Below are positions 4,106 through 50,387 of a stretch of DNA of 50,387 nucleotides, piece by piece; position 1 is the stretch's first letter; each line of letters opens with the position of its first letter. The DNA is taken from IMG/VR virus record IMGVR_UViG_3300020125_000120, positions 1 to 50,387 of that record; one strand, 5' to 3'. The position numbers and the translations under genes were made by a program. Below the pieces are notes generated by a model. That model did no database searches. It saw only the letters and a list, made by a program, of their open reading frames with translations, and was not told the origin of the DNA. This DNA is from a virus.

Positions 4106-5079
4106 ATAAAATAATATCCTGAAAGTGTAACTTGAAGTCCACTTAATTGTATGTTTGTTACTGTTGCCAACGATGATGACAAATATATCCCCATACTAGT
4201 GCTACCTGATGGGATTATTGCACATATTACCGAACCACCATTATCGGCTCCGTTTAATACTCCAAATGTACCAGCAGCAGAAGCAGTAAATGGTAAAACA
4301 CCAATCATAGCTATATTTGTATCTGCTGTAGAAGGGTATGTTATATTAATTTGTACAAATACCAAATTTCCAATTTTAGAATAGAATCCTGCTGATGAAG
4401 CAAATGTTAATCCTCCTGCACTTGTATCAATTGGTGTAAATGCAGTTTTTGATGGTATAATAACGCTACTTTTTGGAATCCATGATACTACACCGGTATT
4501 ATCGGTACTGAGCAATGAATCATTTGCGGTAGCTAACATTCCTGTAGTACCAGTACCAGACTGGACAGGTATACTTTCAGTTGCTCCACCTGCTATATTT
4601 GTTGCTGTTGTTGCATTTGTAGCGTTAGTTGCTGTAGCTGCATTTCCTGTTGTATTTTGGTTTAAAGTTGGTATATCTGATGCTATAATAGCTCTATATG
4701 TTACATGTGTACCATTACCGCATATAAAAAAATGATTTGTTACTGCACCAGCCAAATTATCAAGTGCACCTTGCTGGGTTGTAGCCCCAGTACCACCTTG
4801 TGAAATACCCCACGGCAATGTAAATGTATCATTTATATCAGCAAGAGCTTCCAACAAAGTTGTTCTATCTGAAGTAACAGGATTTGTTACGGTTGTAGTA
4901 TCAGCGTTTACCGCAGGCATAGCGGCAGTATTATCTAACTGAATTGTACAATTTGGCCCAGTACCATAATTTATAAAAGCCGAATATGTATAGCCAGCCC
5001 TTTGTATAGGGAATATATCTGTCTTTTGTACATATGTTGGCGATGTCGCTGGTGTTAGTGCGTCAATTGTTTGGCTCAT
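4102..5079 (-). CDS. Tail fibre / receptor-binding protein
   Basis: 325 aa. The middle carries the tail-fibre signature PWGISQGGTGATTQQGA followed by a low-complexity Ala/Thr/Asn region (NAATATNATNATTATNI). The C-terminal ~110 residues form a beta-rich domain (GNLVFVQINITYPS, SGYYFI at the end) typical of fibre tips that touch the receptor. It is the last structural gene before the lysis cassette and overlaps both neighbours. The receptor is unknown. Confidence 0.85.
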   Translation of the reverse strand: MSQTIDALTPATSPTYVQKTDIFPIQRAGYTYSAFINYGTGPNCTIQLDNTAAMPAVNADTTTVTNPVTSDRTTLLEALADINDTFTLPWGISQGGTGATTQQGALDNLAGAVTNHFFICGNGTHVTYRAIIASDIPTLNQNTTGNAATATNATNATTATNIAGGATESIPVQSGTGTTGMLATANDSLLSTDNTGVVSWIPKSSVIIPSKTAFTPIDTSAGGLTFASSAGFYSKIGNLVFVQINITYPSTADTNIAMIGVLPFTASAAGTFGVLNGADNGGSVICAIIPSGSTSMGIYLSSSLATVTNIQLSGLQVTLSGYYFI

Positions 5080-16274: not shown

Positions 16275-16826
16275 CTATGATAATACTCCTTCTCTAGCAA
16301 GTCGGCGTTTTTCATATAGTCTTTTTAGAGATTCTTTCATTTTAGCAATAGATTCTGGAGTATGAGACTTCCCATAAAATGGATTATTAAACCCTTGTTT
16401 CTTTTTGCTCATTTTGATTTTTGTCTCTAGAGTTGCCTTTTTGCCTATTTTGGATAATCTAGATGCATCTATAACATGCTGTGGTCTTGGTTTTCCTATT
16501 TTGGAAGCGGCTATTTTTCTTTTTGATTCTTTTGTATGATGTTTTCCTTGCATGTTGTTACAAGTATCATTAATCATATTATAGCTATTAATATCTTTTT
16601 CGGCATCAATTGTGTCTAATACAAGAGACTCTAACTCATATCCGTCATCATCACATATACATAGAATTATTTTTGTAAAATTTTGCTTGCTATGCTTTCT
16701 GATAGCAGCGGACAATAATACACTAGAGCCAAAGTATTTATCAGTATATACACATTTGCAACGTCTAGAGCCTATATACCATTTTCCTGTTATATTGTTA
16801 GTGATTTTGTAGATATATGCTGTCAT
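16275..16826 (-). CDS. GIY-YIG homing endonuclease with NUMOD3-like repeats
   Basis: 183 aa from ATG 16826, whose ATGA overlaps the stop of the upstream gene. The GIY-YIG nuclease module is clear at residues 3-30 (YIYKITNNITGKWYIGSRR), with downstream conserved Ser, His and Glu. The C-terminal half has NUMOD3-type DNA-binding repeats (GKHHTKESKRKI, NPFYGKSHTPESIAKM). Such free-standing Seg-like enzymes cut alleles lacking the insertion and spread by repair. An in-frame longer ORF (MEIYYRLLI in front) is explained by the original start of the interrupted neck gene. Confidence 0.9.
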   Translation of the reverse strand: MTAYIYKITNNITGKWYIGSRRCKCVYTDKYFGSSVLLSAAIRKHSKQNFTKIILCICDDDGYELESLVLDTIDAEKDINSYNMINDTCNNMQGKHHTKESKRKIAASKIGKPRPQHVIDASRLSKIGKKATLETKIKMSKKKQGFNNPFYGKSHTPESIAKMKESLKRLYEKRRLAREGVLS

Positions 16827-16831
16827 GATAA
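16277..16831 (-). mobile_element. Endonuclease insertion flanked by 7-bp repeats
   Basis: TTATCAT (minus strand) occurs at 16831-16825 just before the endonuclease start and again at 16283-16277 across its stop. Removing one copy plus the ORF would bring the upstream gene's end (TTA TCA T) next to AGGTGACACAATT of the neck gene. No group I or II intron core was seen, so this looks like a free-standing ORF insertion. Confidence 0.6.
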
Positions 16832-17209
16832 GCAGCCGATAATATATTTCCATCCAGTTTGAAAGCTATCGAATACGTCTACAACATCATATCTCTGTGA
16901 CTTCCAAATTATATAGTCCTGTGCTTTACCTGATGGGCGATTAACCCCTGATATCGTATTGTTTTGTATGTAGAATCTGTAATATATACGAGTTATATCA
17001 TAACCATATATATGCTCTAGGTTTTGATTGGTTTCTTGATATACACTAGATTTCATGCTAACAGGAGCAGCATATGTAGGTGTTATAACACCCTTTATGT
17101 TAGTTTGCCCAGTCCATACATAAATCTGTATATCTTGTTTAAATACTAATCCATTAACTTGTGGGCTAATCGTATTTTCTAAATTTTGGTATCCGATTGC
17201 ATAGCCCAT
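16823..17209 (-). CDS. Head-tail connector / collar protein
   Basis: 128 aa. The beta-rich sequence with IQIYVWTGQTNIKGVITP, YRFYIQNNTISGVNRPSG and YDVVDVFDSFQTGWKYI is typical of small joining proteins located between the tail-completion and neck-terminator genes of this phage type. The stop overlaps the ATG of the inserted endonuclease. Exact family not certain. Confidence 0.68.
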   Translation of the reverse strand: MGYAIGYQNLENTISPQVNGLVFKQDIQIYVWTGQTNIKGVITPTYAAPVSMKSSVYQETNQNLEHIYGYDITRIYYRFYIQNNTISGVNRPSGKAQDYIIWKSQRYDVVDVFDSFQTGWKYIIGCLS

Positions 17210-18821: not shown

Positions 18822-20012
18822 TTATATTCCTGACATTGTTGAAACACCGATTGGGTCTTTGATTAGAGAACCAGATACAGTATAACTGATTTTTTCTGCA
18901 TAGCTTGAAAGTAATCTAACAACACCATGAGAATAATATAATGATGAGAAAACGTTTACTGCAACATTGTCACCGTTTAAATCATCTAGCACTAATTGAC
19001 AATAATTTGGAACTGACGCACCAATTGGTGTGCCTGTACCTTGATAGTCTTGTACTTGAACAACTTTAAGTCCAGGGAATGCAATATTTAAATAACCTTG
19101 AACAATTTGAGTACCCAACGCATTTTGATTTACCAAGAATGTGTATACACATGGAGGAATACCAAGAGTTGCTGGCATTTTATAGTCAGCATTACCACCA
19201 GCTACACTTGTGATGTCACTGTATAGGCTTTGGATATCTGTACAAATTTCTGCATAAGTTTTATAAAACCATTGACTAGATGAAGGATTTGCTGCAGAAG
19301 CAGGAGATACAAGAACAGTACGTAATGATGGATCATTTAATAGACCAAAAATACGCATTCCGGCATAACCTTTAAAGTTAATCCTATTTATATCCAATGC
19401 GATTAAACTTGTAGCTGCTTTACGCAATCCTGCTACATAATCAATTTTACCCATTCCGAAACGTGCAGTAGCTAAATCACCATATTCAAGTGTTTTTTGC
19501 AATGATACTGCTTGACGTTGTACCCAGTTATAGTTAACTGAGCTTGCACCTGCTGGGCTTTGGTCAGAATAAACTGCTGTATTACCCATATATTGTACTG
19601 TAGGTACATACACATCAGTTGTACCAAATGCACCTTGCTGCCAGTCTGTTGTCATTACACGAGAAGCAGTTGTTTGCAATAATTGTTCAATTGGTTTAAA
19701 ATTGAATACTGATGTTAAATATTCAAGTACACCGTTAGATGGTATACCATATGCTACTGTGTCATCTTGTGCAATTTGATCACAAATAGCCTTAAGTTCA
19801 TTTTTATCTTTAGCCAAATAAATTTGATCAGTTACACAACCTTCTTGATTTGGATGTCTAAGTGACATTCCATAACCTTCATGTTCTGTTGTACCGCCAC
19901 CATTTGGATTTAAATTTGTTCTTTGCAATAACTCAAGATCGTCAAGACGTCCATTTACATGAGACTCATCAAGACCAGAATCTAAAGCTATATTTTTAAT
20001 ATCTTGTCTCAT
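18822..20012 (-). CDS. Major capsid protein (DUF2184)
   Basis: 396 aa, an HK97-fold capsid subunit of the DUF2184 type. Typical segments are the N-terminal arm with LNPNGGGTTEHEGYGMSLRHP, the spine region QRQAVSLQKTLEYGDLATARF, and KIDYVAGLRKAATSLIALDI. It follows the cement protein gene by 1 base and is downstream of the protease/scaffold, the usual head order. Confidence 0.88.
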   Translation of the reverse strand: MRQDIKNIALDSGLDESHVNGRLDDLELLQRTNLNPNGGGTTEHEGYGMSLRHPNQEGCVTDQIYLAKDKNELKAICDQIAQDDTVAYGIPSNGVLEYLTSVFNFKPIEQLLQTTASRVMTTDWQQGAFGTTDVYVPTVQYMGNTAVYSDQSPAGASSVNYNWVQRQAVSLQKTLEYGDLATARFGMGKIDYVAGLRKAATSLIALDINRINFKGYAGMRIFGLLNDPSLRTVLVSPASAANPSSSQWFYKTYAEICTDIQSLYSDITSVAGGNADYKMPATLGIPPCVYTFLVNQNALGTQIVQGYLNIAFPGLKVVQVQDYQGTGTPIGASVPNYCQLVLDDLNGDNVAVNVFSSLYYSHGVVRLLSSYAEKISYTVSGSLIKDPIGVSTMSGI

Positions 20013-20554: not shown

Positions 20555-22252
20555 TTATTTCCTATTAATTAAACTGACGTATGTAGATGCTTTTGTATCT
20601 GTAGCGACACGTCTTTTTGGTTTAGCTTGTTCTTTTGTACTAGCAAGAACTTCAAGCATTGCTACTTTGCTGTCGAATGCACGACCTTTTGTATTGATAT
20701 TGTTTTTAGTAAGAGCATTATCAATAATTGTTTCAATTGATGCTGTTTCTACAAATTTATCAGACATTCCGATAACTTTCTTAGCTGTTGCTATAATACT
20801 ATTCCTAGCCCTTATAGCTGCATCCATTGCTTTTTCTTTTTCGACTTCTTCCTCGTCGTCTTCTGCTTTTTCTTCTTCGTCCTCGTCTTCATCCTTAGCC
20901 TTTTTGTCTTTGGCTTTCTTGGCATCACGAGCTTTTTTATCTTTAGCCTTTTTCTCGGTTTCTTCTTCACCTTCGTCTTTAGCTTCTTTATCTTTTTCTT
21001 CTTCGTCCTCGTCTTTTGCTTTTTTATCAATAGACATTTTAGAACGTTCAGCTCTTTCAGTTTCATTCTCAATATCAGCTTCATCATAAGCATTTACTGC
21101 CGCTATAATAACGCTTGCCTGTTCTACTACACCACCCTCAAATTCGCTTGCATCTCGTGCAGCTATTTCAGAAATAGTATCAAAAATTACTGATTTATTA
21201 GTTTTCTTGTCAGCAGCGAAAACGCGCCCAAGAATGGAGCTAACCCAACTTTTTTTACTCATTGTTTTACCTTTAATGTTTGTGTTATCGTCTGCTATGG
21301 CAGCTTGCTCATGACGTCCGTCTTCTACAAGTGCCAAGTGATTTCCCTTAATGTTCACCATTTTAAAATGGTATGGTTTCCCGTTGAAGTTTCCTTCTTC
21401 AGGTATTAAATCATACGTATAACCGCATGATAAATCTTTTTTACCGCCTTCGTTATTGTCGGCTCGTTCTATAGCACGTATTGCTTTGCCATCGTGAATA
21501 TGAACTGAATTAAATAAATTGTTTTCTTTTGTGTCGAATTTTGAATCTGTACCAGTTGAACCAATCCAACGGTTTTTATGTGGATTTTCTGGTGTAATGT
21601 ATATATGACCGTCTGTTAATGGTATGCCATTGAATGTATCTGCTGCTTTTTTTACTTCTTCGGCTGGTCTATATACACCATATATCTTATCTTTATCAAG
21701 TCCTAGCGAACCTGTTTTGTCTAATTCTTTACCAAGATATGGTGCTACCTGTTCACCTGTAAGTACACATCCTTCAACATGCAAATAACCATTTGAGTCT
21801 ATATCTCTTTTTGTTTCTCCTACACTTACTTTGTTTGAGGCAGCGTATGAATCTCCTGCCCATGAATCCATAGAAATAGGTTTATCTTTAGCAAGAAACC
21901 ATTTATCAGTATATTTACCAAATGTGTTGTATATTTTTTCTTCTCTTTTTAGCTTTTCTAGTGCTTTTTTACGAGCTTCGGATTCTTCTGGTGTTGTGTC
22001 GTTTGATGTAAGTTCTTCAGCTTGATTCCATATTTCAAGATTAGCCAATGTACGTAATGCTTCTTCGTTTTCTTCTTCTAACTCATCATCTTTGGCTTTT
22101 AATTCTTTATGAAGTATATAGTTAGCTAAAGCCCATTTATTATCTGGATTTTCTTTAGTTGCTTTTGATTTTGCGTCTTGCCATTTAGCTTCAACGTCTT
22201 GCTTAGATTTGCCTGTTTCTTTAACAAGCGCTTTGATAAGTGGAGCTGGCAT
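20555..22252 (-). CDS. Prohead protease / scaffold fusion (DUF2213)
   Basis: 565 aa in four parts. Residues 1-125 are a charged helical domain (MPAPLIKALVKETGKSKQDV). About 145-320 is the DUF2213 maturation protease, with LTDGHIYI and MVNIKGNHLALVEDGRHE. About 410-480 is an extreme Lys/Glu/Asp low-complexity region (KAKDEDEEE recurring). A C-terminal tail follows (SIETIIDNALTKNN). The protease trims head proteins; the charged region likely acts as internal scaffold. It is the first gene behind the large non-coding region, whose transcript probably reads into it. Confidence 0.85.
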   Translation of the reverse strand: MPAPLIKALVKETGKSKQDVEAKWQDAKSKATKENPDNKWALANYILHKELKAKDDELEEENEEALRTLANLEIWNQAEELTSNDTTPEESEARKKALEKLKREEKIYNTFGKYTDKWFLAKDKPISMDSWAGDSYAASNKVSVGETKRDIDSNGYLHVEGCVLTGEQVAPYLGKELDKTGSLGLDKDKIYGVYRPAEEVKKAADTFNGIPLTDGHIYITPENPHKNRWIGSTGTDSKFDTKENNLFNSVHIHDGKAIRAIERADNNEGGKKDLSCGYTYDLIPEEGNFNGKPYHFKMVNIKGNHLALVEDGRHEQAAIADDNTNIKGKTMSKKSWVSSILGRVFAADKKTNKSVIFDTISEIAARDASEFEGGVVEQASVIIAAVNAYDEADIENETERAERSKMSIDKKAKDEDEEEKDKEAKDEGEEETEKKAKDKKARDAKKAKDKKAKDEDEDEEEKAEDDEEEVEKEKAMDAAIRARNSIIATAKKVIGMSDKFVETASIETIIDNALTKNNINTKGRAFDSKVAMLEVLASTKEQAKPKRRVATDTKASTYVSLINRK

Positions 22253-22263
22253 ATTTATTCTTG

Positions 22264-22320
22264 GTCAAGTTTGAGAGGGTTAAGTCTGACTATAGATATT
22301 TATAGTCAAGTTTGAAGTAT
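22264..22320 (-). promoter_or_regulatory. Leader repeats and 8-bp hairpin before head genes
   Basis: TGACTATA (22287-22294) and TATAGTCA (22301-22308) form an 8-bp stem with a 6-base loop. The minus-strand word TCAAACTTGAC occurs twice here (22274-22264 and 22315-22305), and AAACTTGAC a third time at the -35 box of the strong promoter (23171-23163). This may be an operator, or may control initiation of the protease gene that starts at 22252. Confidence 0.5.
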
Positions 22321-22339
22321 CCAAATTGGACTATGACAT

Positions 22340-23133
22340 ATTTATTTGATTATAATACACGTAATTGATGTTTGTTATGTGAATATGGAGCTACAGAATG
22401 ACATTTGTCGATTTAGCGCTCCAATTGGTGACAATAATAAGGCAGGTACGATGGGCTATACTCCCATTATACATATATCAAGTCTTACTAATTATAATAT
22501 GTACCACGCAGACATCTCGTATACAGACGCTTTGATTCTAACCTATTGTTCGGAATGCGTGGCTTATTTAGACCCGTCCACGCTTGCAGTGTACTCACAA
22601 GGGTTTATGATGCGAAAGGAGGAACATCATATTTATTATGCACATTTATAGATGCGCAACACTAAATTAAACTTCCCGTTTTCGACCTTGGAGAGCTGCG
22701 GTAGGGAAACACCTGATAACTGCGCATTATTTTGTTTTACTTGGACACGCGCAATGTCCAAATCTTCAATTGAGCTTTATTTAGCTTCGCGCTCTACGAA
22801 CTTGGAGATCGTTAAATGCGTACCTATTTATACACATGCACGCTTGCACTGTTAGTTCAGTTAGTGTAATCTTTTAATGTACTGTAAGATTTAAGTACGG
22901 TAAGATTGAATTTGTGTCACCTTACTACCCACAGCCGCCATATACAGCCTGACACTCTGGTTTAGGTGAGTCAACCAGTTAAATATGGAGAGTTACGCTG
23001 TTTGCTTGCAAGAATAGGTAGCCCGCTAATTCTCTTTCGAGATGTGGTTGTTTCAGACTAAGCCACATATTACTTATCGTGTAATAACGTCACTAAGGTA
23101 GTAGTAATCTATTTGTCAAAAGACAGTATTGAA
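22340..23133 (-). ncRNA. Candidate large ornate structured RNA (~800 nt)
   Basis: No credible gene occupies this stretch on either strand, and it is visibly richer in G and C than its surroundings. Perfect short stems follow one another: 22386-22423 (TGGAGC), 22451-22467 (ATGGG), 22557-22583 (GCGTGG), 22652-22727 (ATGCGCA), 22741-22761 (TTGGACA, 7 bp), 22868-22907 with inner 22879-22898, 22914-22955 (GTGTCA), 22957-22978 (CTGGTT), 23042-23068 (ATGTGG) and 23068-23086. The stem 23031-23042 has a GAAA tetraloop only when read on the minus strand, which agrees with the consensus promoter at 23140-23168. Size, phage setting and hairpin density recall GOLLD and ROOL RNAs; no class could be assigned. 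The 3' end is uncertain because no terminator is seen before 22252. Confidence 0.65.
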
Positions 23134-23139
23134 GTGTAT

Positions 23140-23168
23140 ATTATATCATTAAATGTATTATTTGTCAA
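23140..23168 (-). promoter_or_regulatory. Perfect sigma70 promoter
   Basis: On the minus strand TTGACA (23168-23163), a 17-base spacer and TATAAT (23145-23140): both boxes match the consensus exactly. Transcription should start near 23133 and run into the structured region and then the head genes. It implies use of host sigma70 RNA polymerase. Confidence 0.88.
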
Positions 23169-23217
23169 GTTTATTTTTGACTATTTTAGTTATCTCATTC
23201 CGACAGTAGGTAACTAA

Positions 23218-23379
23218 TTAACATCCTGATGTATACATTTTTATATATCTTGCTGCTTCTTCCAATAAATTAGCTATTTTATCCGGCTTACCTTCTTGTA
23301 CACTTTTACGTGTTTTTATCTGTCTACGTATTCTAGCACGTTCTTCTAGGCGGTATATTAAATCTTCTTGATAAGTCAT
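23218..23379 (-). CDS. Hypothetical protein, 53 aa
   Basis: Begins MTYQEDLIYRLEERARIRRQ; highly charged and probably helical, with a second helix PDKIANLLEEAARYIKM. Upstream GGAGTGTAAT gives an RBS. It lies between the MuF-side small genes and the large RNA promoter. Function unknown. Confidence 0.6.
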   Translation of the reverse strand: MTYQEDLIYRLEERARIRRQIKTRKSVQEGKPDKIANLLEEAARYIKMYTSGC

Positions 23380-23460: not shown

Positions 23461-23655
23461 CTAATCATTAACCATATTTAGTGCTTGTTTAATACTACAT
23501 AGCTCTGCTTTTAATTGTATTGTTTCTTTTGCAAGAAGTACAACTATCTGCGCTAAATAACTTTCCTGCCATGTGCAATCCCTTATATCTTCTAATGTAT
23601 GGTAACCGTAATCTCGTTTTTCAATAGTTTTAATCAAATTCCACCACACTTTCAC
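23461..23655 (-). CDS. Hypothetical protein, 64 aa (GTG start)
   Basis: Starts at GTG 23655 within the end of the MuF-like gene, preceded by GGAG. It begins MKVWWNLIKTIEKRDYG and ends in a leucine-rich helix (VLLAKETIQLKAELCSIKQA), probably a coiled coil. Not recognised; overlap with the upstream gene suggests coupled translation. Confidence 0.55.
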   Translation of the reverse strand: MKVWWNLIKTIEKRDYGYHTLEDIRDCTWQESYLAQIVVLLAKETIQLKAELCSIKQALNMVND

Positions 23656-24484
23656 TCCAACACGTACACCCTATCTTTTCCCCAACTTGTATGTATTCTA
23701 ATACACCTTTTTCGTTCTTAATAGGACATCCTTGTTTTAGATCATAAACACGCCCAGAAGCCTCTAAATGTGTCTTTCTTGGCACTTTGTCAGCATGACT
23801 ATGCCGCCAAATACCTTTTGTTATTCCGAGTTTTAACCGTCTTTCATTATCCATTGCTGATGTGGCTTTTCTTAGTTGATCATGTGCTATAAACTCAGCC
23901 CGTCTATCCGTTATATGATATATGTTTTTAAGTTCTTTTATCAAATAATCTTTATCACGGCCTTTTAACATCGATTGTGTTACGGCATTTTGAATCTGTG
24001 TAAAGTATTGATCTGGAATAGATTTTATCAAACTAACGTTATTTTCTATCAATATCTTAGATGATTGTAACGCTTCTTTGTTTATATTGCTAAAACCTGT
24101 TGTTAATTGCTGTGCCACTTCTTTATGTTTTGTGTCTTTAAATGCTTTGTTTAACTGCATATCAACACTATTTTGTATATTTGCGGCATACGTATTTGCT
24201 AACATTGGAGCTGTAAAGTTAAAGAATTGAAACCATTTGGATACTTGTTGCTTAATAACATCTTGTAAACTTTGTGCTAATTGCTCGTTTACGGCTGTTT
24301 GCGGGTTTAATCGGATATTAGGTTTAGCATCTTCTACACTTTTTGGAACCAATGTATACACTTGTTCTACACTTTTTGTAACTTGTTTGTTCATTTCGTA
24401 TAATATTTTACGTAAACGTATACGATAATTCTTACTGATAGCATAGCTTGGTTTAACAGCTTTAAGTATTATTTGTACTGTCAT
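23630..24484 (-). CDS. Head morphogenesis protein (SPP1 gp7 / MuF-like)
   Basis: 284 aa. The N-terminal two thirds are helical. The C-terminal MuF module is clear: HITDRRAEFIAHDQLRKATS, then GIWRHSHADKVPRKTHLEASG, and the Cys/Trp ending EKIGCTCWSESVVEF. These minor head proteins bind the portal and may be ejected with DNA. It lies downstream of the portal after four small genes. Confidence 0.85.
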   Translation of the reverse strand: MTVQIILKAVKPSYAISKNYRIRLRKILYEMNKQVTKSVEQVYTLVPKSVEDAKPNIRLNPQTAVNEQLAQSLQDVIKQQVSKWFQFFNFTAPMLANTYAANIQNSVDMQLNKAFKDTKHKEVAQQLTTGFSNINKEALQSSKILIENNVSLIKSIPDQYFTQIQNAVTQSMLKGRDKDYLIKELKNIYHITDRRAEFIAHDQLRKATSAMDNERRLKLGITKGIWRHSHADKVPRKTHLEASGRVYDLKQGCPIKNEKGVLEYIQVGEKIGCTCWSESVVEFD

Positions 24485-25175: not shown

Positions 25176-25351
25176 TATCTATTCAACCATTCTTTAAATA
25201 ACATTTTAAGTATACGTTGTGCTTCTAATCTAGTTTCTACATTAAAACCTGGTTCTATCTGTTGTAATATATCGTCACTATATTTTTCAAATGATCCCAT
25301 TGCATCAAAAGCTTTATTAAAACATGTCGCTAATTGTTTACTTGTTATCAT
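25175..25351 (-). CDS. Hypothetical protein, 58 aa
   Basis: Begins MITSKQLATCFNKAFDAMGS; two helices separated by a Gly/Phe turn, ending MLFKEWLNR. Overlaps the portal stop by 4 bases. Function unknown. Confidence 0.58.
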   Translation of the reverse strand: MITSKQLATCFNKAFDAMGSFEKYSDDILQQIEPGFNVETRLEAQRILKMLFKEWLNR

Positions 25352-27018
25352 TTATCTTCCTCCTCTGGGTCTTGTGGCATAATTGCAGATATCTCTTTGT
25401 CTAGGTCTTCCTCATCTATTTCAAGTTCATTATATCCACTAGATGGATCAGCAGCTATTCTTTTCTGCACATCAGGTTGTCCTAATGTTTGATTTTGGAT
25501 ATATATATCATCAGTTTGTGCTTGTATTAGACGTATTTGAGCATCTTCAAGAGGGTTAGTTTCTTCAAGTTTATTAAATTCAAACGTAATCTTATCGTTT
25601 ATTTCGCCCCATATATTTAACATAGCACAATGCATAATGTTAGTCAATATAGGCTTAATCATAGTTTCTTGTTCGCATGATACCTGATCATAGTGATTTT
25701 TCATTTCAAACTCACCCGATGCATTCATACCAGCAGGACTATTACCAAATAGTTTAACTATAGGTGTTCCAGGTATAATAGCTACATATTCAAGTGATTT
25801 AGTTAATAATGTGTCTAATCCGGCCAATGCCATAGATACTTGTTCATACAATTCACCTTTAGCTAATACCAAAGTACTTGTATTATCTCTGAATTCTGTT
25901 AATATTTCAACACGATTAGCCAAATTAGCCGCAGATTCTTCTACCAATGAATTATCATTAATTATTGCTGATTGGTCTGTTGTTAATATACCAAGGTTCA
26001 ATCTACTTACAATTGTTATTATATTGTTGTACATCTTTTCAAATGCTGTAACATATGGTATTAATTGTCCCAACATTGGAATGCCATTAAATAGGTAGAC
26101 AGGACGCAATAAGTTTACATTCTTATTCTTATTCATTTGCCATACACGAGAAGAATGGGTTATTTGCCCCATTATGGTATAAAACTCTGGTACATAGAAC
26201 CATTTAGAAAAAGGGTCAATTGTATTGTATTTAATAGGAACATACCATGTTGGTTCAACAGTACTAATATATTCAAGATCACCAGTACTGATACATGTAC
26301 TATCAATCGATAATTCAGTTTCTCTTGTTAAATCTTTTTCGTCATCCTTTAACTTGGGAAATACTAAGCAAGAACCTTGTGTATATGTTAAAAATGCAGC
26401 CCATCTTAATACTTCTTTATCCCTTAGTCTGTCCATTTCTTTAGTAAGTTCAAGAATTGTATCTTCAGTTATAGACTCATCAGTTCCTTTAAATTCCCAT
26501 CCTTTGCGTACCAATTCCAATGATTTAATGTCACATATCTTGTATAATAGACTATTTTGTGTTAATAAGCTATATTGTGCATAGCCAAGAAACCAATTAT
26601 CTATTAGCCATTGGTCTACACCATTTAGATTAAAAGCATTAAGTGGTATGCCGCCAGCATTGGGATTACCTGGCAAATCATCAGCCGCATAGTGTTTATC
26701 CATTACACCAGAATTATTATATTTTGCTATAAGCTTATCTGCTGCTATCCATTTACCATCTATATCCATTACTTCAGGGATTTTATGCTTAAGCTTTGTG
26801 CTTAGACCTTTTTTACCTTTCCCTTGTTTTAATGACTCTGAACTCCATAAACTCTTGGTTTTAGTTATTTTATCCATTACATCAGTAACCATAACATTAT
26901 CATTGCCTTGCTGATTTTTAGCAGGATATATGGCTTCCATTTGTGCGAATTTGGCATCTACTTTATCTATTAACGCCTGTAATCTAGCTTCTTGTATTGT
27001 TTGTTTTTTAACTGTCAA
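25348..27018 (-). CDS. Portal protein (DUF1073 type)
   Basis: 556 aa. Portal features include DQWLIDNWFLGYAQYSLLTQ, the conserved WAAFLTYTQGSCLVF region and LFGNSPAGMNASGEFEMKNH, which is characteristic of DUF1073 portals. It forms the dodecameric DNA gate and motor dock. The C-terminus is acidic (EEDLDKEISAIMPQDPEEED). Terminase genes lie upstream and the head genes downstream. Confidence 0.88.
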   Translation of the reverse strand: MTVKKQTIQEARLQALIDKVDAKFAQMEAIYPAKNQQGNDNVMVTDVMDKITKTKSLWSSESLKQGKGKKGLSTKLKHKIPEVMDIDGKWIAADKLIAKYNNSGVMDKHYAADDLPGNPNAGGIPLNAFNLNGVDQWLIDNWFLGYAQYSLLTQNSLLYKICDIKSLELVRKGWEFKGTDESITEDTILELTKEMDRLRDKEVLRWAAFLTYTQGSCLVFPKLKDDEKDLTRETELSIDSTCISTGDLEYISTVEPTWYVPIKYNTIDPFSKWFYVPEFYTIMGQITHSSRVWQMNKNKNVNLLRPVYLFNGIPMLGQLIPYVTAFEKMYNNIITIVSRLNLGILTTDQSAIINDNSLVEESAANLANRVEILTEFRDNTSTLVLAKGELYEQVSMALAGLDTLLTKSLEYVAIIPGTPIVKLFGNSPAGMNASGEFEMKNHYDQVSCEQETMIKPILTNIMHCAMLNIWGEINDKITFEFNKLEETNPLEDAQIRLIQAQTDDIYIQNQTLGQPDVQKRIAADPSSGYNELEIDEEDLDKEISAIMPQDPEEEDK

Positions 27019-32441: not shown

Positions 32442-33331
32442 AAAATACCTTTTTCTTTTAATAGTTTAATCGATCTATTAGCAGTAAATTGCTGTGATGC
32501 TTTATAATTCCAATCTGCTATATGTTCTTTTAATATATGATCTTTAATATAATCATCAAATGCTGCTTGTTGACAATTCTTTATATATGTACCGATATCT
32601 TTACTAGAAAACTCTCCATTTTTAACCGTTTTCTCAAATTCTTTATAAAATAATTGATTATCAATAGAGTCAATAAATAATGATTCTTTTGTCAAACTTT
32701 TATCTATGTATACACGTTCTTTTTTAGGCTTGTTGCCATTAAATGCATTATCATTGATGATTTTTACCCATGTTTGCCGACCAAACTCATTCTGCCAGTT
32801 AAAGTTTTTAACTACAAATCCTTCAAATTGTGGAGTACCTGAATCTATCAAATAATTACCAACTTCTTTATAATATTCAAAAACAGACCCATCAGCTATT
32901 TTTTCTTTTAATTCTTTAGGTGATACACAAATCCCTTCAATGACATCTATATCATATAATTTTAAACATTCTATATGCATCAATTCATCAGAATTATAGG
33001 CCTCAAATACATAAAACTTTTTATATGCATCTTCTTTATATTTAATATGATGCTGCACAAGCCATTCACCATATAATCTTGCATATGGGTATTTATCAAA
33101 AAAATTATGATACCTCATGTCATGTATTAATGTATTATAGCATCCAGCATTATCGCTTTGTAATGATAACTCACGATTACGACTAGCTATATGTATTTCA
33201 TCACCTGCATACCACATAGAACAGTTAGAACCATCCAATTTAGGTTGGAGTATTACATAGTCAGTATCTAATATCCCTAAAGTTTCCTTTATATCAAAAC
33301 GACGCTCTACGTGTTGGTATTTAATAAACAT
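32438..33331 (-). CDS. RNA ligase (Rnl2-like)
   Basis: 297 aa with nucleotidyltransferase motifs in order: I at 31-36 (KLDGSN, Lys31 nucleophile), Ia ASRNREL, III YGEWL, IV EGFVVKN and V WVKI. The C-terminal ~90 residues are a helical domain. It should seal 3'-OH/5'-P RNA ends or nicks using ATP. No polynucleotide kinase partner and no tRNA genes are visible, so its substrate is open. It overlaps the recA start-proximal neighbour by 25 bases (its own start lies within the recA 3' end). Confidence 0.9.
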
Positions 33332-34290
33332 TTTTCTAATAACCCCATAGTAACCAAATCATTTGTTAAAGTTTCTTTTACAGATTCTTTACCTTGTCCT
33401 AGTTTAATATCTCCATATGTATACCATGAACCAGACTTTTTAATAACACCTTTTGCTACAAGTATATCTATAACTTCATTCAAATAATCAATACCGTGCC
33501 CATATAAGATGTTAAAGTCAGCCACTTTGAATGGAGATGCCATTTTGTTCTTAACCACTTTAACCCGTGTTTCGTTTCCAATAATCTCATCACCTTTTTT
33601 GATCTGACCTGTTTTTCTAATATCCAATCTGACTGAAGCGTAGAACTTAAGCGCATTTCCACCAGTGGTTGTCTCTGGATTCCCAAACATTATCCCAATC
33701 TTCATTCTAATCTGATTAATAAATATAACCAATGTATTTGTATTATGGATTGCTCCCGTTATTTTTCTTAATGCTTGACTCATTAACCTAGCTTGTAGTC
33801 CCATATGACTATCACCCATATCACCATCTATTTCAGCACGAGGTGTGAGTGCTGCCACGGAGTCAATGACAATTAGATCGATTCCACCACTTCGTACAAG
33901 AGTATCAGTAATTTCAAGTGCTTGTTCACCACAATCGGGCTGACTAACAAATAAATCTTTAACATTAACACCAAGTTTTTCAGCATATCCAATGTCTAAA
34001 GCATGCTCAGCATCTATATAAGCGCATGTTCCGCCGTTTTTCTGCATTTGAGCAACAACAGACAAACACAACGTAGTTTTCCCGCTTGACTCGGGTCCAT
34101 ATATTTCAACAATACGACCCAAAGGTAATCCACCAATACCAAGAGCTTCATCAATAAGTAATGATCCTGTTGAGACTACTTCTACATCTAGCTTCTGATT
34201 ATCTCCAAGCTGCATTATAGAACCATCACCAAAAGATTTATTGATAGATGATATAGCTTGAGCTAAAGCGTCTTGTTTACTGGATACCAT
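33307..34290 (-). CDS. recA: RecA recombinase, proteobacterial type
   Basis: 327 aa, closely resembling cellular RecA rather than UvsX. Walker A is GPESSGKTT, the core has YIDAEHALD and [13 protein letters not shown], loop L1 is [15 protein letters not shown], and loop L2 contains [16 protein letters not shown]. The acidic C-terminal tail of cellular RecA is shortened. It would form filaments on single-stranded DNA for strand exchange and could trigger LexA-type cleavage. It was probably acquired from a bacterial host. Confidence 0.95.
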
Positions 34291-36630: not shown

Positions 36631-37080
36631 ATGAAGCTTTTATACTATCCGGACGAGCGGTTAAATCTCGTATGTGAATCATGCAAATCTTGTGATGTAA
36701 CATTGGATATTGTTAAAAAGATGACATATATAATGCGTAAGAAGAATGGTATTGGTCTTGCTGCACCTCAAGTAGGTATAAATAAGAGATTTTTTATAAT
36801 GGAATATCAAAATGGTTTATTGGCTGGGGATGTTGTGGTGCACATCAATCCTAGAATAACAGTATTATCTGAAGATAAAAATAATATTATTGAGGGCTGT
36901 TTATCCATACATGATAAAAAAACAACTCAAAAAAGATCATATTATATTCAAATGATATACGAAGATTTGGACGGATTTACTAGAAAATCTGGTCATATTG
37001 ATATTGATGCAGCCATTATTCAACATGAAATAGATCATTTAAACGGTATACTTATGATAGATAGGATAAATCATGGATAA
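36631..37080 (+). CDS. def: Peptide deformylase
   Basis: 149 aa with all three motifs: GIGLAAPQVG (residues 40-49), EGCLSI (Cys metal ligand, near 90) and QHEIDHLNG (near 131-139). It removes the N-formyl group from new proteins. It is the first gene of the plus arm, so formed early. Phage deformylases are known from marine and other phages; the benefit is thought to be support of host or phage protein maturation. It overlaps the polymerase start by 8 bases. Confidence 0.94.
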   Translation: MKLLYYPDERLNLVCESCKSCDVTLDIVKKMTYIMRKKNGIGLAAPQVGINKRFFIMEYQNGLLAGDVVVHINPRITVLSEDKNNIIEGCLSIHDKKTTQKRSYYIQMIYEDLDGFTRKSGHIDIDAAIIQHEIDHLNGILMIDRINHG

Positions 37081-40003
37081 ATTCGTACATTTAAAACTAC
37101 GTACAGACTACAGTTTAGTAGATGGCTGTATATCTATTGATAAAGCTATTGATCAAGCCAAACAATACGGTATTAAATGCCTAGCATTGACAGATTATCA
37201 TAATATGTTTGGTCTTATTAAATTTTATACAAAATGCCGCGAAAATGGGATTAAGCCTATAGTAGGTTGTGAGTTACGTGTCGAACATTGTCAAAATGTG
37301 ACAGTATTATGTAAAAACATAAACGGATATAGGCATCTTTGTGAGCTTATAACCAGGTCATACATCGATAATATGATAGGTGGGATACCATATGTTAGAT
37401 TTGAATGGATACAACCTGATGATATTATAGTATATTCTCAAGATTTATCCATATGCGAATCGATGAAATTTAAATTTGGTAATAATTATTATATAGAATT
37501 ACAACGTATATATCATAAAGATACAAATAAATATATTAAAGATGCAATAACTTTGTCTAAAGAGCTATCAATACCAGTAGTTGCAACACATTCTAACTTA
37601 TGTTTGAAAGATCAGCATATATCAAATGAAATTAAGATATGCATAAATGAAAGTACAGAATTGTCAGATAATACTAGACATTCTGATGATTGTTTTTTCA
37701 AATCACCGGAAGAAATGTGTGATTTATTCTCTGATATTCCTTCTGCTGTAACGAATACACTAGAAATAGCTAAGATATGTAACTTAGAATTAAATTTATT
37801 TGATGATTTTATGCCTCCTTTTTCAAATAACACCGTCATGAGCACAAAAGATATCATATGGGCAGATACTAATAAATTCCTTATTGATAATGAGCTGTAT
37901 ATTGATAATTATAGGCTTAGACTAAAATATGAACAAGATGTCATCAATAAAATGGGATTCTCTGATTATTTTCTTATTGTTGCTGACTTTATACAATGGG
38001 CAAAAGGTCATGACATAATAGTCGGCCCCGGACGTGGATCATCTGCTGGTTCATTAGTAGCATATGCATTAGGTATAACTGACGTTGATCCAATTAAACA
38101 CAATTTGTTATTTGAACGTTTTCTTAATCCAGAACGTGTATCATTACCAGATATTGACATAGATGTGGAACCGGATGGTCGGGAGCCTATTATACAGTAT
38201 ATCCGCGATAAATATGGTGATGATAAAGTATCACAAATAGCTACATTTAGTAAATTAACCGCTAAATCGGTTTTAAAGGACGTAGGGCGTGTTTTGGGTG
38301 TTCCATTTGAGGTAACCAACAAATTGACATCAATGATCACAGGAAAGGGCGTAGATACCTTAGAAAAGGCATATAATGAATGTGATGAGTTTAGAGAATA
38401 TATAGATAAATCTGGTGGACAAATAAAAGAAGCATTTCAAAATAGTAAGTATCTTGAAGGATTGACTAGAAATGTAGGCAAACATGCTGCAGGTATATTG
38501 ATAGCTCCTACTAAAATAACTGATTTTTGTCCATTATATGAAGCTGACGGCACTATGATTAGTCAATTTGACAAGGAAGATGTAGAAAAGATTGGATTAG
38601 TGAAGTTCGATCTGCTTGGGTTAAAGACACTTAAGGTAATAAAAGATACATTAAAAGCTTCTAATCTACAATTGCCAACCGAGTTTGACGATAAAAAAGT
38701 ATATGATTTGCTTAGTACTGGGAATAGCATAGGATGTTTTCAGCTTGAATCTGATGGCATGCGCAGACTATTAAAAGAGATGCAACCTAATTGTTTAGAA
38801 GATATAGCATCAGTTATATCGTTATATCGTCCGGGCACATTAAATGCTGGTATGGTGTCAGAATTTGTAAGACGTAAAAACGGTACTTCATTAATTAATT
38901 ACTATCATAATGATTTAAAAGACATACTTCAACCAACATACGGTGTGATTGTATATCAGGAACAAGTTATGCAAATAGCCCAACAAATAGCTGGTTATAC
39001 ATTATCTGAAGCAGATTTATTAAGACGTGCTATGGGATACAAAGATGCTGTTGAAATGGCTAAACATAAAGACATATTTGTTAAAGGAGGCATATCTAGA
39101 GGATATACAGATGAGCTTAGTAATGAATTATTTGAATTAATATTTAAATTTTCTGATTATGGATTTAATAGATCACATGCTATAGCTTATGCAACAATAT
39201 CATATTATACAGCATATTTAAAAACATATGCTACGGCTGAATTTATAGCAGCATTAATGAATATAGATAATGGAGATACTGATAGGTTGTACGAGTTATA
39301 TGATGATTGTAAAATATTTAATATAGAATTACATTCACCAAATATAAATTTTTCTGCTAAAACTTTTGAATCTAATATAAAAGATACCATAAGATACGGC
39401 CTATCAGGTATAAAAGGTTTGGGAGATAAGGCCTTAGATGTTATATTAAAAGCTAGAGAATTTGGACAATTTAAGGACATTCAAGACTTTAAAAATAGGA
39501 CAAAATCACGTAGCGTTACAAGTAAAGTCATTACAGCACTACAGGATAGTGGAGCATTTGACAGCATACAAAAAAGAAATTTATCACTAAAAGAATTAAT
39601 AGAACGTGAACAAAAAGCGTTAGGATTTAACTTACAGTATACTTACTTCCAGCAATATGAAGGTTTTGCAAGGAATTGTGGAATTAAAAAAATGTCTGAA
39701 TTATATATTGATGAAATAAATATAGTTAATATATTTGGTGTAGTTAAAAATATAAGACATATTAAAACAAAAACAAATAAAGATATGTATATAGTTGATG
39801 TCACTGATGATTCGGCTAGTTTGCATATGATATTATGGGACAGAGATTGGGCTATAAATGGCAGTAAAATTATAGAAAATAAACCAATTTTAATTGAGGG
39901 AATAGTCAAATTTGATGAATTTCGTAAGAAAAATATGATAGTCTACAAGAAAATAGCATCATTTAGTTGCTTACTGCCAGAACAAGATAATAAAAATGTT
40001 TGA
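37073..40003 (+). CDS. dnaE: DNA polymerase III alpha subunit (DnaE-type)
   Basis: 976 aa, a C-family replicative polymerase, shorter than the ~1160 aa of cellular DnaE. PHP domain at 1-235: HLKLRTDYSLVDG replaces the canonical HxH, so its metal site looks lost. Polymerase: GPGRGSSAGSLVAYALGITD, then catalytic PDIDIDVEPDGR (Asp pair near 360-363) and LVKFDLLGLKTL (third Asp near 512). Finger region has RAMGYKDAVEMAKHK and FNRSHAIAYATISYYTAYLK. Helix-hairpin-helix near 780 and an OB fold at about 880-945 (NIFGVVKNIRHIKT). No clear clamp-binding motif or tau-binding tail. It makes the phage largely independent of the host polymerase. Confidence 0.95.
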   Translation: MDKFVHLKLRTDYSLVDGCISIDKAIDQAKQYGIKCLALTDYHNMFGLIKFYTKCRENGIKPIVGCELRVEHCQNVTVLCKNINGYRHLCELITRSYIDNMIGGIPYVRFEWIQPDDIIVYSQDLSICESMKFKFGNNYYIELQRIYHKDTNKYIKDAITLSKELSIPVVATHSNLCLKDQHISNEIKICINESTELSDNTRHSDDCFFKSPEEMCDLFSDIPSAVTNTLEIAKICNLELNLFDDFMPPFSNNTVMSTKDIIWADTNKFLIDNELYIDNYRLRLKYEQDVINKMGFSDYFLIVADFIQWAKGHDIIVGPGRGSSAGSLVAYALGITDVDPIKHNLLFERFLNPERVSLPDIDIDVEPDGREPIIQYIRDKYGDDKVSQIATFSKLTAKSVLKDVGRVLGVPFEVTNKLTSMITGKGVDTLEKAYNECDEFREYIDKSGGQIKEAFQNSKYLEGLTRNVGKHAAGILIAPTKITDFCPLYEADGTMISQFDKEDVEKIGLVKFDLLGLKTLKVIKDTLKASNLQLPTEFDDKKVYDLLSTGNSIGCFQLESDGMRRLLKEMQPNCLEDIASVISLYRPGTLNAGMVSEFVRRKNGTSLINYYHNDLKDILQPTYGVIVYQEQVMQIAQQIAGYTLSEADLLRRAMGYKDAVEMAKHKDIFVKGGISRGYTDELSNELFELIFKFSDYGFNRSHAIAYATISYYTAYLKTYATAEFIAALMNIDNGDTDRLYELYDDCKIFNIELHSPNINFSAKTFESNIKDTIRYGLSGIKGLGDKALDVILKAREFGQFKDIQDFKNRTKSRSVTSKVITALQDSGAFDSIQKRNLSLKELIEREQKALGFNLQYTYFQQYEGFARNCGIKKMSELYIDEINIVNIFGVVKNIRHIKTKTNKDMYIVDVTDDSASLHMILWDRDWAINGSKIIENKPILIEGIVKFDEFRKKNMIVYKKIASFSCLLPEQDNKNV

Positions 40004-41345: not shown

Positions 41346-41485
41346 ATAGGAGGGCAAGATATTTTAGCAAAATATAATGCTCGCCTAGAAGTCGGATAGG
41401 GTTCGACCCGGAGGATTGAAAGATCGATGGAGTCTAAGGCTTGAGCTGACATTTTAAATCAATAAATTACCCGCTTCGGCGGGTT
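41346..41485 (+). ncRNA. Structured RNA or 3' leader with switchable stems
   Basis: Non-coding. AGGAGGGC (41348-41355) can pair with GCTCGCCT (41379-41386) around a perfect 7-bp hairpin ATATTTT-AGC-AAAATAT (41359-41375). The same GCTCGCC can instead pair with GGC-TT-GAGC (41438-41446). The GGG-TTCGA-CCC hairpin is at 41399-41409. The region ends in a terminator. Mutually exclusive stems before a terminator suggest a regulatory RNA; it is not a recognised class. Confidence 0.5.
41469..41484 (+). terminator. Terminator with UUCG tetraloop
   Basis: ACCCGC-TTCG-GCGGGT is a perfect 6-bp stem closed by the very stable C(UUCG)G tetraloop, followed by TTATGATTATAT. The T-run is short, but the hairpin is strong and lies between the protease gene and the next operon. 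Confidence 0.75.
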
Positions 41486-41724
41486 TATGATTATATATAA
41501 AGTACACTCATTATGTAGGGTGTGGTAGTTACTAGGGCATACTAGCTTATAGTTACAATTCTACCCATAGCTAACTCTATATTATCAGCTAAGAGCGCAA
41601 TGACGGGTGTACGCCATATATAATTATGGGTGTTAAACTATTGTCTCTTGGTGGTTTTTAAATTTGAATAACTGCTGGAAAGCCAAGATTTGACGCTTGG
41701 AGGCATCTTTATAGGAGTATTATC
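41486..41724 (+). other. Non-coding stretch before small-gene operon
   Basis: No gene seen. It contains a CTAG-GGCATA-CTAG hairpin around 41536-41551 and CCAAG/CTTGG (41683-41700) ending close to the RBS ATAGGAG of the gene at 41725. Some local structure is likely; no promoter of consensus quality was found, so the operon may be read from upstream. Confidence 0.4.
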
Positions 41725-41814
41725 ATGTTAATATTATTTATATTATTCACAATATTTGCATGTTTATCAGCATTATTTGCTATGCATATTACTAACAAAT
41801 TTATAAGTTGGTAG
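41725..41814 (+). CDS. Membrane micropeptide, 29 aa
   Basis: RBS ATAGGAG. MLILFILFTIFACLSALFAM is a single hydrophobic helix, followed by HITNKFISW. Function unknown. Confidence 0.5.
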   Translation: MLILFILFTIFACLSALFAMHITNKFISW

Positions 41815-41823
41815 GAGATTATT

Positions 41824-42015
41824 ATGAAAAAATTTACTATTGTGTATGGATTTAGAGATCAAAAAATTCATGCAAGAAAAGTTATATCTGCGCATAATCT
41901 TAATTCTGCAAAAGATATATGTAATGAAGATTATCCATTTTATGATATAATCAGTATATATGATGATAAAAGTAAATTATTGGCAAATTTTTCAAATGAA
42001 ACATGGACATCATGA
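41824..42015 (+). CDS. Hypothetical protein, 63 aa
   Basis: RBS TAGGAG. Begins MKKFTIVYGFRDQKIHARKV, then a helix (SAHNLNSAKDICNEDY) and a strand (YDIISIYDDKSKLL): a compact alpha/beta fold. Not recognised. Confidence 0.6.
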   Translation: MKKFTIVYGFRDQKIHARKVISAHNLNSAKDICNEDYPFYDIISIYDDKSKLLANFSNETWTS

Positions 42016-42134
42016 TAGCTTTATACTTGGGAATATTAGAAATAATAAGATGGTATTATAATCATGAAAATACTGCAAAAATATTAAATTATTTTTATAA
42101 GATATTTAAATTTATCTTTGGAGTTATAGAATGA
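42012..42134 (+). CDS. Hypothetical protein, 40 aa
   Basis: ATGA overlap with the previous gene and ATG overlap with the next. Begins MIALYLGILEIIRWYYNHEN and ends in an aromatic hydrophobic stretch (YFYKIFKFIFGVIE), possibly membrane-associated. Confidence 0.5.
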   Translation: MIALYLGILEIIRWYYNHENTAKILNYFYKIFKFIFGVIE

Positions 42135-46693: not shown

Positions 46694-46892
46694 TCAACTC
46701 TATAATGAACTAATAGATAGAATTATATTTTATACTTGCAGGGATGGTGGTATGTATGAAGATGTTATATTTCAATTTCTTATAATGAATCCATCTCTTT
46801 TATATGACTGTGATAGCATAAGTAAATATCAGGATAATAAAAATATTAAAATAAGAAAAGGTAAGGTGTATTATGACCGTGATAGCATTTAA
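46674..46892 (+). CDS. Hypothetical protein, 72 aa
   Basis: Begins MKKKTNDQLYNELIDRIIFY; helical with CRDGGMYEDVIFQFLIMNP. Overlaps ERF by 20 bases and the Ntn hydrolase by 20 bases. Not recognised. Confidence 0.58.
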   Translation: MKKKTNDQLYNELIDRIIFYTCRDGGMYEDVIFQFLIMNPSLLYDCDSISKYQDNKNIKIRKGKVYYDRDSI

Positions 46893-47415
46893 AAAAGAAG
46901 GAAATAAAATTCATGTAGCTGCTGATACACTTGTTACACAGGGTTTTGATGTAGTATCATATACTAATAAAATTATTAAACACTCCAATGATTGGGCTGT
47001 CGGATTTGCAGGTGATGCCTCTATAGGTCAAATATTTTTAACATATAGTAAATATTATATGCCAGGTGAAGATAAATCAGAAGGCGATGAACCATTATTT
47101 CATATTGTTAATTATATTAATGGCTTTGTATCATATATTAATAATTCCCCTATGTTTCCGACACAAGATCAATCTAAAGAAGATGGATATGATTTTGTAA
47201 TGTTTTACAAAGGCCATATATTTACTTATTCATCTAATGGTGAGTTAAGTGAAATAAATTACCCTTTTGCTATAGGCATAGGACAGTCATTTGCTATAGT
47301 TGCAATGAGGCTTGGACATACAGCAAAAGAAGCAGTAGAAATAGCCATAAAAAATAACATAGCATGTGGTGGTGATATAGATGAATTTACAGTAATCACT
47401 AAATCACGAAAATAA
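46873..47415 (+). CDS. HslV-like Ntn hydrolase (proteasome-fold)
   Basis: 180 aa. It starts MTVIAF, so Thr2 would be the N-terminal nucleophile after Met removal. AADTLVTQG and KIIKHSNDWAVGFAGDASIG follow the proteasome beta / HslV pattern, as does GIGQSFAIVAMRLGHTAKEA in the last third. No HslU-type ATPase is encoded, so the protein may act alone or with the host unfoldase. The encoded deformylase could also help expose the N-terminus, an inference. Confidence 0.78.
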   Translation: MTVIAFKKEGNKIHVAADTLVTQGFDVVSYTNKIIKHSNDWAVGFAGDASIGQIFLTYSKYYMPGEDKSEGDEPLFHIVNYINGFVSYINNSPMFPTQDQSKEDGYDFVMFYKGHIFTYSSNGELSEINYPFAIGIGQSFAIVAMRLGHTAKEAVEIAIKNNIACGGDIDEFTVITKSRK

Positions 47416-49971: not shown

Positions 49972-50387
49972 TGCGTAAAATTGAGATAAGCCGACAGGCT
50001 GTTATAGGTATGTATAATACTGGGCTTAAGGCTGCACAAATTGCACGCGAGTTAAATGTTGGCGAAAGTCAAGTTTATCAAATATTGAAGGATTATAGAG
50101 ATAAACAACCAAAATATAAGCCAACAATTGAAAGAATTTTGCCGCAACAAATTACAGCTAATATAAAAAATGGGCAAGTACTTGTTACAAGTGATGAACA
50201 TGTACGACCAGGTGTTATTTCTGTAGCATGTCAAGCGGTATTTAATCTTCTTAAAAAAGAAAAATTTGCTATGGTTGTATCTAATGGTGATTTTACTGAT
50301 TTTGCTAGTATATCTAAGCATGAAGCTGATGGTTGGGAACCTCGTTTTACTGTAGCTGAAGAATTAGCCGCTGGTATGGATTTTCTT
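49971..50387 (+). CDS. HTH-metallophosphoesterase, N-terminal part (continues at 2-634)
   Basis: Residues 1-40 hold a helix-turn-helix of the homeodomain-like / resolvase type (YNTGLKAAQIARELNVGESQ, then VYQILKDYR). At about 66-70 is the first phosphoesterase motif, LVTSDEHVRPG (DxH). The GDFTDF motif follows in the duplicated end. The frame runs off the window but continues at position 2. DNA-targeted phosphoesterase activity is inferred from the fusion. Confidence 0.88.
   Translation, partial: MRKIEISRQAVIGMYNTGLKAAQIARELNVGESQVYQILKDYRDKQPKYKPTIERILPQQITANIKNGQVLVTSDEHVRPGVISVACQAVFNLLKKEKFAMVVSNGDFTDFASISKHEADGWEPRFTVAEELAAGMDFL
50261..50387. repeat. Right copy of 127-bp terminal overlap
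   Basis: Identical to bases 1-127. Joining the copies restores one continuous phosphoesterase gene, which supports a circular map rather than a packaged terminal repeat. Confidence 0.95.

Follow-up and report, generated by a model that had tools for sequence, protein, structure and literature searches.

A candidate structured noncoding RNA between the capsid-operon promoter and the head protease gene of a phage

What is specified by a long gene-free stretch that lies within the head operon of a phage and is entered from an exact consensus promoter? The question arises from a phage record of 50.4 kb and 31.8% GC, of which the whole stretch of 50,387 nt (the window) was analysed. Few large phage RNAs are known, all of unknown function; two of them assemble into cages made of RNA alone. 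This locus is likely to specify a real structured RNA, whether it acts in trans or in cis. If it represented a further, unrelated class, such RNAs would have arisen repeatedly, and an RNA linked to a capsid promoter would offer a concrete clue to the timing and the partners of large phage RNAs; if it were a cis-acting leader instead, late genes would be controlled in an unusual way, by a structured 880-nt leader on the capsid operon.

The head operon is read from the minus strand in the following order:

25348-27018, minus strand: portal
23630-24484, minus strand: MuF-like head morphogenesis protein (phrog_324, E 2.2e-59), upstream of the gap
23461-23655 and 23218-23379: two small ORFs from the ORF list, between the MuF-like gene and the gap
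22253-23217: the gap
20555-22252, minus strand: head maturation protease, DUF2213-like (phrog_2229, E 9e-70), first gene downstream of the gap
Between the protease and the major head protein, minus strand: 178-aa ORF
18822-20012, minus strand: major head protein (phrog_264, E 2.8e-26)

The record is probably complete, as judged from an exact direct repeat of 127 bp at its ends (1-127 = 50261-50387), which probably reflects a genome read around its circle or terminal redundancy.

The gap is larger than the span first described and is noncoding over several hundred nucleotides. In agreement with the preliminary description, which saw no credible gene and a composition richer in G and C, all six frames of 22253-23217 score negatively against the phage's own codon usage (-0.22 to -0.31 bits per codon) while its genes are positive in 40 of 40 cases (0.07-0.54), and GC amounts to 0.38-0.43 across 22400-23100 in 200-nt windows (about 40% in the core), compared with 0.318 (about 32%) for the genome and 0.24-0.33 for its other gene-poor gaps. 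The longest ORFs of the gap, both on the plus strand (22346-22651 and 22652-22855), gave no significant match in Pfam or PHROGs, and the former matched no phage record by tblastn. The plus strand is nearly open over 22346-22852 (172 codons with one stop), a length reached by 0.2% of shuffles; periodicity in this frame is weak and confined to the first part (P 0.019 vs 0.455 in the second). A plus-strand protein gene was rejected on its negative codon score, a periodicity that is not gene-like and the lack of a protein match. Other gene-poor gaps of 0.5-0.8 kb are present in the same genome, and one of them (41346-42130, plus strand) has a stable fold (z -2.9, 40 shuffles) with a GC of only 0.30.

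The exact consensus promoter reported earlier on the minus strand was recovered at 23168-23140 as the single site in the genome that matches at 12 of 12 positions, and it additionally carries an extended -10 element. Transcription is predicted to start near 23133. No terminator was found between this promoter and the protease and no recognised processing site in the candidate RNA, which has a strong promoter of its own and no terminator of its own. A weak promoter-like site on the minus strand (ATAACA-N18-TATAAT, 22378-22349) would give the protease a separate leader of about 90 nt, and another weak site (10/12) lies on the plus strand at 22327-22356; sites of 10/12 quality number 16 in total, compared with 13.5 expected from shuffles. 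The features predicted for this region are the following:

23140-23168, minus strand: extended -10 sigma-70 promoter, exact TTGACA-N17-TATAAT, with TG preceding the -10 element
22380-23134, minus strand: candidate structured noncoding RNA module (40% GC), predicted from noncoding score and fold
22944-23094, minus strand: 5' part, with predicted hairpin 23094-23061, UCUC-GAAA-GAGA stem-loop 23042-23031 and hairpin 23001-22944
22695-22935, minus strand: predicted Domain 1, a long composite helix (22935-22845/22726-22695) closing several hairpins, among them a 10-bp hairpin at 22763-22739
22594-22693, minus strand: predicted Domain 2, a long imperfect hairpin of 33 predicted pairs
22815-22852, minus strand: repeat copy A, hairpin GCGUGC...GUACGC with loop ...UAAAUA
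22554-22592, minus strand: repeat copy B, hairpin GCGUGG...CCACGC with loop ...UAAAUA
22501-22594, minus strand: domain matched by a covariance model of 22854-22717, a candidate for an internal duplication that takes in the closing helix
22386-22472, minus strand: predicted 3' hairpins 22472-22446 and 22423-22386 (pair probabilities 0.90-0.95)
22253-22379, minus strand: probable original protease leader, AT-rich, with hairpin 22309-22286 and a weak similarity, TCACATAACAAACA, to the leader of the related phage L124 (P 0.02-0.05)

A CCUCC resembling an anti-Shine-Dalgarno sequence at about 22620 was dropped from consideration, as it is largely paired in predicted Domain 2 and would amount to a modest coincidence.

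Folding of the predicted transcript (23134-22253, minus strand) gave a minimum free energy of -215.9 kcal/mol with a z of -3.16, and 0 of 100 shuffles were as stable (z -3.29 in a separate shuffle run). The excess stability is strand-specific, z being -1.31 for the reverse complement. After removal of the last 137 nt, 23134-22390 alone retains a z of -2.21, with 2 of 100 shuffles as stable. Most of the excess resides in 22935-22594 (z -4.07, reverse complement -0.89), a value inflated by the fact that the limits were taken from the fold; the same inflation applies to Domain 1 (z -3.19, pair probabilities 0.7-0.98) and Domain 2 (z -3.67, pair probabilities 0.82-0.96). The 5' part 22944-23094 on its own is no more stable than shuffles (z -0.73). 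By the same method the long noncoding RNA (lncRNA) of phage ICP1 and the ROOL RNA of pMP118, both known to be abundant, gave z values of -1.74 and -1.33, and the candidate is not weaker in folding than either. Folding energy alone is nevertheless weak evidence, because about 5-6% of the other 440-nt minus-strand windows also have a z below -2 (7 listed of 114, one in this region), most of them coding.

The preliminary description had emphasised an abundance of perfect stems. Every stem that it named exists (22741-22761 and 22652-22727, 7 bp each; 22557-22583, 22957-22978 and 23042-23068, 6 bp each), as does the 4-bp stem with a GAAA tetraloop on the minus strand (UCUC-GAAA-GAGA, 23031-23042); their abundance, on the other hand, is at chance level in dinucleotide shuffles, with 62 stems of at least 5 bp (60.2+-7.6 in shuffles), 20 of at least 6 bp (16.0+-3.9) and 5 of at least 7 bp (4.0+-2.0). 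The stem count was therefore dropped and given no weight, and the argument for structure depends on the overall folding energy and on an internal repeat.

The self-similarity of the region exceeds that of 300 of 300 shuffles. The two repeat copies are 79.5% identical over 39 nt and fold to the same six-pair hairpin, in which the innermost pair is C-G in copy A and G-C in copy B (a double-sided change) and the next pair is G-U in A and G-C in B (a one-sided change); this reading requires that the single gap of the alignment be placed one column earlier, which is an equivalent placement. By estimate, such changes would leave the pairing intact about once in seven by chance alone, and with so few changes between only two copies the compensatory signal is suggestive only. 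A single-sequence covariance model of 22854-22717 found its second-best match at 22594-22501 (22.7 bits, E 0.0077 in 201 kb), which suggests that a whole domain may have been duplicated and not the hairpin alone. The short direct repeats of the region occur in two copies and form no iteron array.

The size and phage context of the region had been likened to those of the GOLLD and ROOL classes. Membership in GOLLD, ROOL, HEARO or OLE found no support in covariance searches: across the whole genome no Rfam family, including OLE and HEARO, reached gathering level, and a sensitive Rfam search of the region at E <= 10 returned just four sub-threshold, chance-like matches. The best of these, to 6A RNA (24.3 bits against a gathering threshold of 41.2), was rejected as chance. 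The ROOL model (RF03087) had no match in the genome at E <= 10, and as a control it detected the known pMP118 ROOL with 130 bits. The model of the conserved 3' domain of GOLLD (RF02032) likewise had no match in the genome at E <= 10 and none in the sensitive search of the region, a weaker test than that for ROOL, as no control scored above the cut-off. No tRNA occurs in the 50,387-nt window, and with it the GOLLD-type tRNA neighbourhood, which is frequent and not universal, is absent.

Homologues were sought by several routes. Blastn of the region returned the promoter alone or chance matches among phages and no homologue among plasmids, and a search of viral contigs for exact matches to a degenerate pattern describing the repeat hairpin found none. 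Related phages were gathered by means of the head-module proteins and DnaE (the DnaE-like polymerase of this phage, assigned by eye to 37073-40003, retrieves relatives among other viral contigs); blastn in their flanks and whole records gave only chance-like matches of 14-38 nt. A scan of genome contigs with the portal and tail sheath detected none, and two single-sequence covariance models (R1 and R2), run on 50 related records each, found none except one match at E 0.09. A match of model R1 in L123 was rejected, as it falls inside a protein gene. The evidence thus comes from one genome, with no homologue found in any search.

The closest head modules found are those of L002/L026 (portal 44% and capsid 46% identical) and of L124 and L126 (portal 41%; capsid 46% in L124), the latter two being near-identical here and counted as one lineage. 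In L002 the MuF and protease genes follow each other without a spacer (-7 nt). In L124/L126 the junction holds a 134-aa ORF followed by an exact TTGACA-N16-TATAAT with an extended -10 element (at 4651 in L124 and 4836 in L126) and then by about 127 nt up to the protease start; the candidate RNA is absent there and the leader is limited to this short stretch. Since these phages share the promoter in the same place, it belongs with the protease-capsid operon, and the roughly 750 nt between promoter and protease are what sets the present phage apart from them. A short, marginal similarity, ATAACAAACAT (P 0.02-0.05), between the L124 leader just after the promoter and the sequence at 22378 would be in keeping with insertion of a segment between the promoter and the leader. 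In L124, the short protease leader also holds an ORF of 24-25 aa (4732-4806) that ends just before the protease start and is perhaps translationally coupled to it. Elsewhere the junction is occupied by tRNA-Val and tRNA-Thr genes (L006, 4080-4241, and the same span in L007), by protein ORFs, several of them antisense to head genes, or by nothing, and no noncoding run above 235 nt was found among the junction gaps of the relatives examined. As the relatives hold tRNAs, ORFs or no spacer, the protease gene has not inherited a requirement for a long leader.

The reading tentatively preferred, at somewhat less than an even chance, is that of a structured noncoding RNA module that uses the capsid-operon promoter, is co-transcribed with the capsid mRNA, is processed and acts in trans. 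The region would specify an RNA of about 750-880 nt on the minus strand, as an accessory module placed between the strong promoter and the short leader of the head protease, at a junction that would serve as a cargo slot where related phages carry tRNAs or small protein genes. With no terminator, it would form the 5' portion of the protease-decoration-capsid mRNA and would presumably be produced in quantity late in infection and protected by its fold; host RNases might then cut it out of the mRNA, and it could act in trans as a large phage RNA. The earlier proposal of a structured RNA on the minus strand gains from the computed results, namely the noncoding character, the raised GC, the exact promoter, a z of about -3.2 on that strand only, the internal repeat, the promoter synteny and the absence of the module in relatives; transcription, processing and action in trans are what we infer from them. 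Against this reading stand the lack of a homologue, of a terminator or processing site, and the small number of internal pair changes. A more ambitious version, which we regard as doubtful, would make it a new class of large phage RNA with partly duplicated domains, expressed from the capsid-operon promoter, cut from the mRNA and acting in trans late, possibly as a multimer like GOLLD and ROOL.

The missing terminator keeps a rival reading, in itself somewhat unlikely, close behind the preferred one: the RNA could be a giant cis-acting 5' leader that remains on the capsid mRNA and governs how stable this mRNA is or how the protease is translated, for instance by masking or unmasking a weak ribosome site or through binding of a capsid protein. 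This possibility was already raised in the preliminary description and has become stronger, with the promoter directly before the protease in L124/L126 and one strong promoter on the same strand with no terminator before the protease here. The protease start also lacks a clear Shine-Dalgarno sequence, but so do many other genes of this phage; moreover, relatives manage with about 127 nt (L124) or no spacer (L002), the best-folded part (22935-22594) is at least 340 nt from the start codon, and the weak site at 22378-22349 could serve the protease alone. The preference for a cargo RNA follows from the fact that relatives do without the RNA and that the junction is a cargo slot. The same slot could instead hold decayed or non-functional cargo, either the remnant of an inserted gene or a spacer of patchy AT/GC composition with an accidental fold. 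We consider this unlikely: the foreign genes often found at the junction (several antisense to head genes), the 172-codon plus-strand frame, the chance-level stem count and the existence of other gene-poor gaps, one with a z of -2.9, would agree with it, whereas strand-specific folding and an internal repeat are unexpected of decay, the exact promoter points into the region, and the open frame has a negative coding score, weak periodicity and no protein match.

Two further explanations carry little weight. One, very improbable, places the function in the plus-strand transcript, antisense to the head mRNA, or in the DNA itself, as an origin or as a packaging or recombination site: the weak plus-strand promoter-like site and the short direct repeats speak for it, but such sites occur at the shuffled rate, the plus strand folds with a z of only -1.31 and the repeats are no iteron array. 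Least probable of all is that the RNA belongs, in strongly diverged form, to GOLLD, ROOL or some other large RNA family already known. Size, phage setting and the tRNA-carrying junction of relatives recall what is described of GOLLD and ROOL (PMC12286853); against it stand the sensitive Rfam searches without a match, supported by the 130-bit control for ROOL and, for GOLLD, by no control above the cut-off.

An abundant discrete transcript and an octameric cage are the hallmarks of ROOL. Among precedents for the preferred cargo RNA, the closest is the lncRNA of Vibrio phage ICP1, an RNA of about 800 nt that is the most abundant ICP1 transcript and lies, by the numbering of PMC7567579, between gp139 and gp140 (PMC7567579). 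It occupies an ORF-less phage gap of about 1 kb away from the tRNAs of its own genome, belongs to no Rfam family and has a sigma-70-like promoter at its head; in contrast to the candidate, its expression is measured and not predicted, it ends at an intrinsic terminator, it adjoins lysis and not capsid genes, and it is not matched by covariance models of the candidate RNA. ROOL RNAs are likewise large, noncoding and borne by phages and prophages, with an unknown function and usually a location near tRNA islands (PMC12286853); the pMP118 ROOL has an intrinsic terminator of its own, unlike the candidate, which also lacks a match to the ROOL model. GOLLD, which exceeds 800 nt and is made during lysis (PMC12286853), is of comparable size and phage-borne, whereas its conserved 3' half is not recognised in the candidate, whose genome has no tRNA. 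The tRNA-Val and tRNA-Thr cargo of L006 occupies the same MuF-protease slot with untranslated RNA genes, although these are ordinary tRNAs and the candidate is a large RNA.

Several other features of the genome were recorded. Strong hairpins occur on both strands at 2201-2400 (z about -4.5), and terminator-like sites lie between convergent operons at 2388-2360 and 2241-2217. Judged by eye, the phage encodes a GIY-YIG-type endonuclease within the tail genes (16275-16853), a RecA-like protein (33307-34290), a peptide deformylase (36631-37080) and an HslV-like protein (Ntn hydrolase, 46873-47415); an HslV-family peptidase is also annotated in ICP1, a phage with an RNA of similar size.
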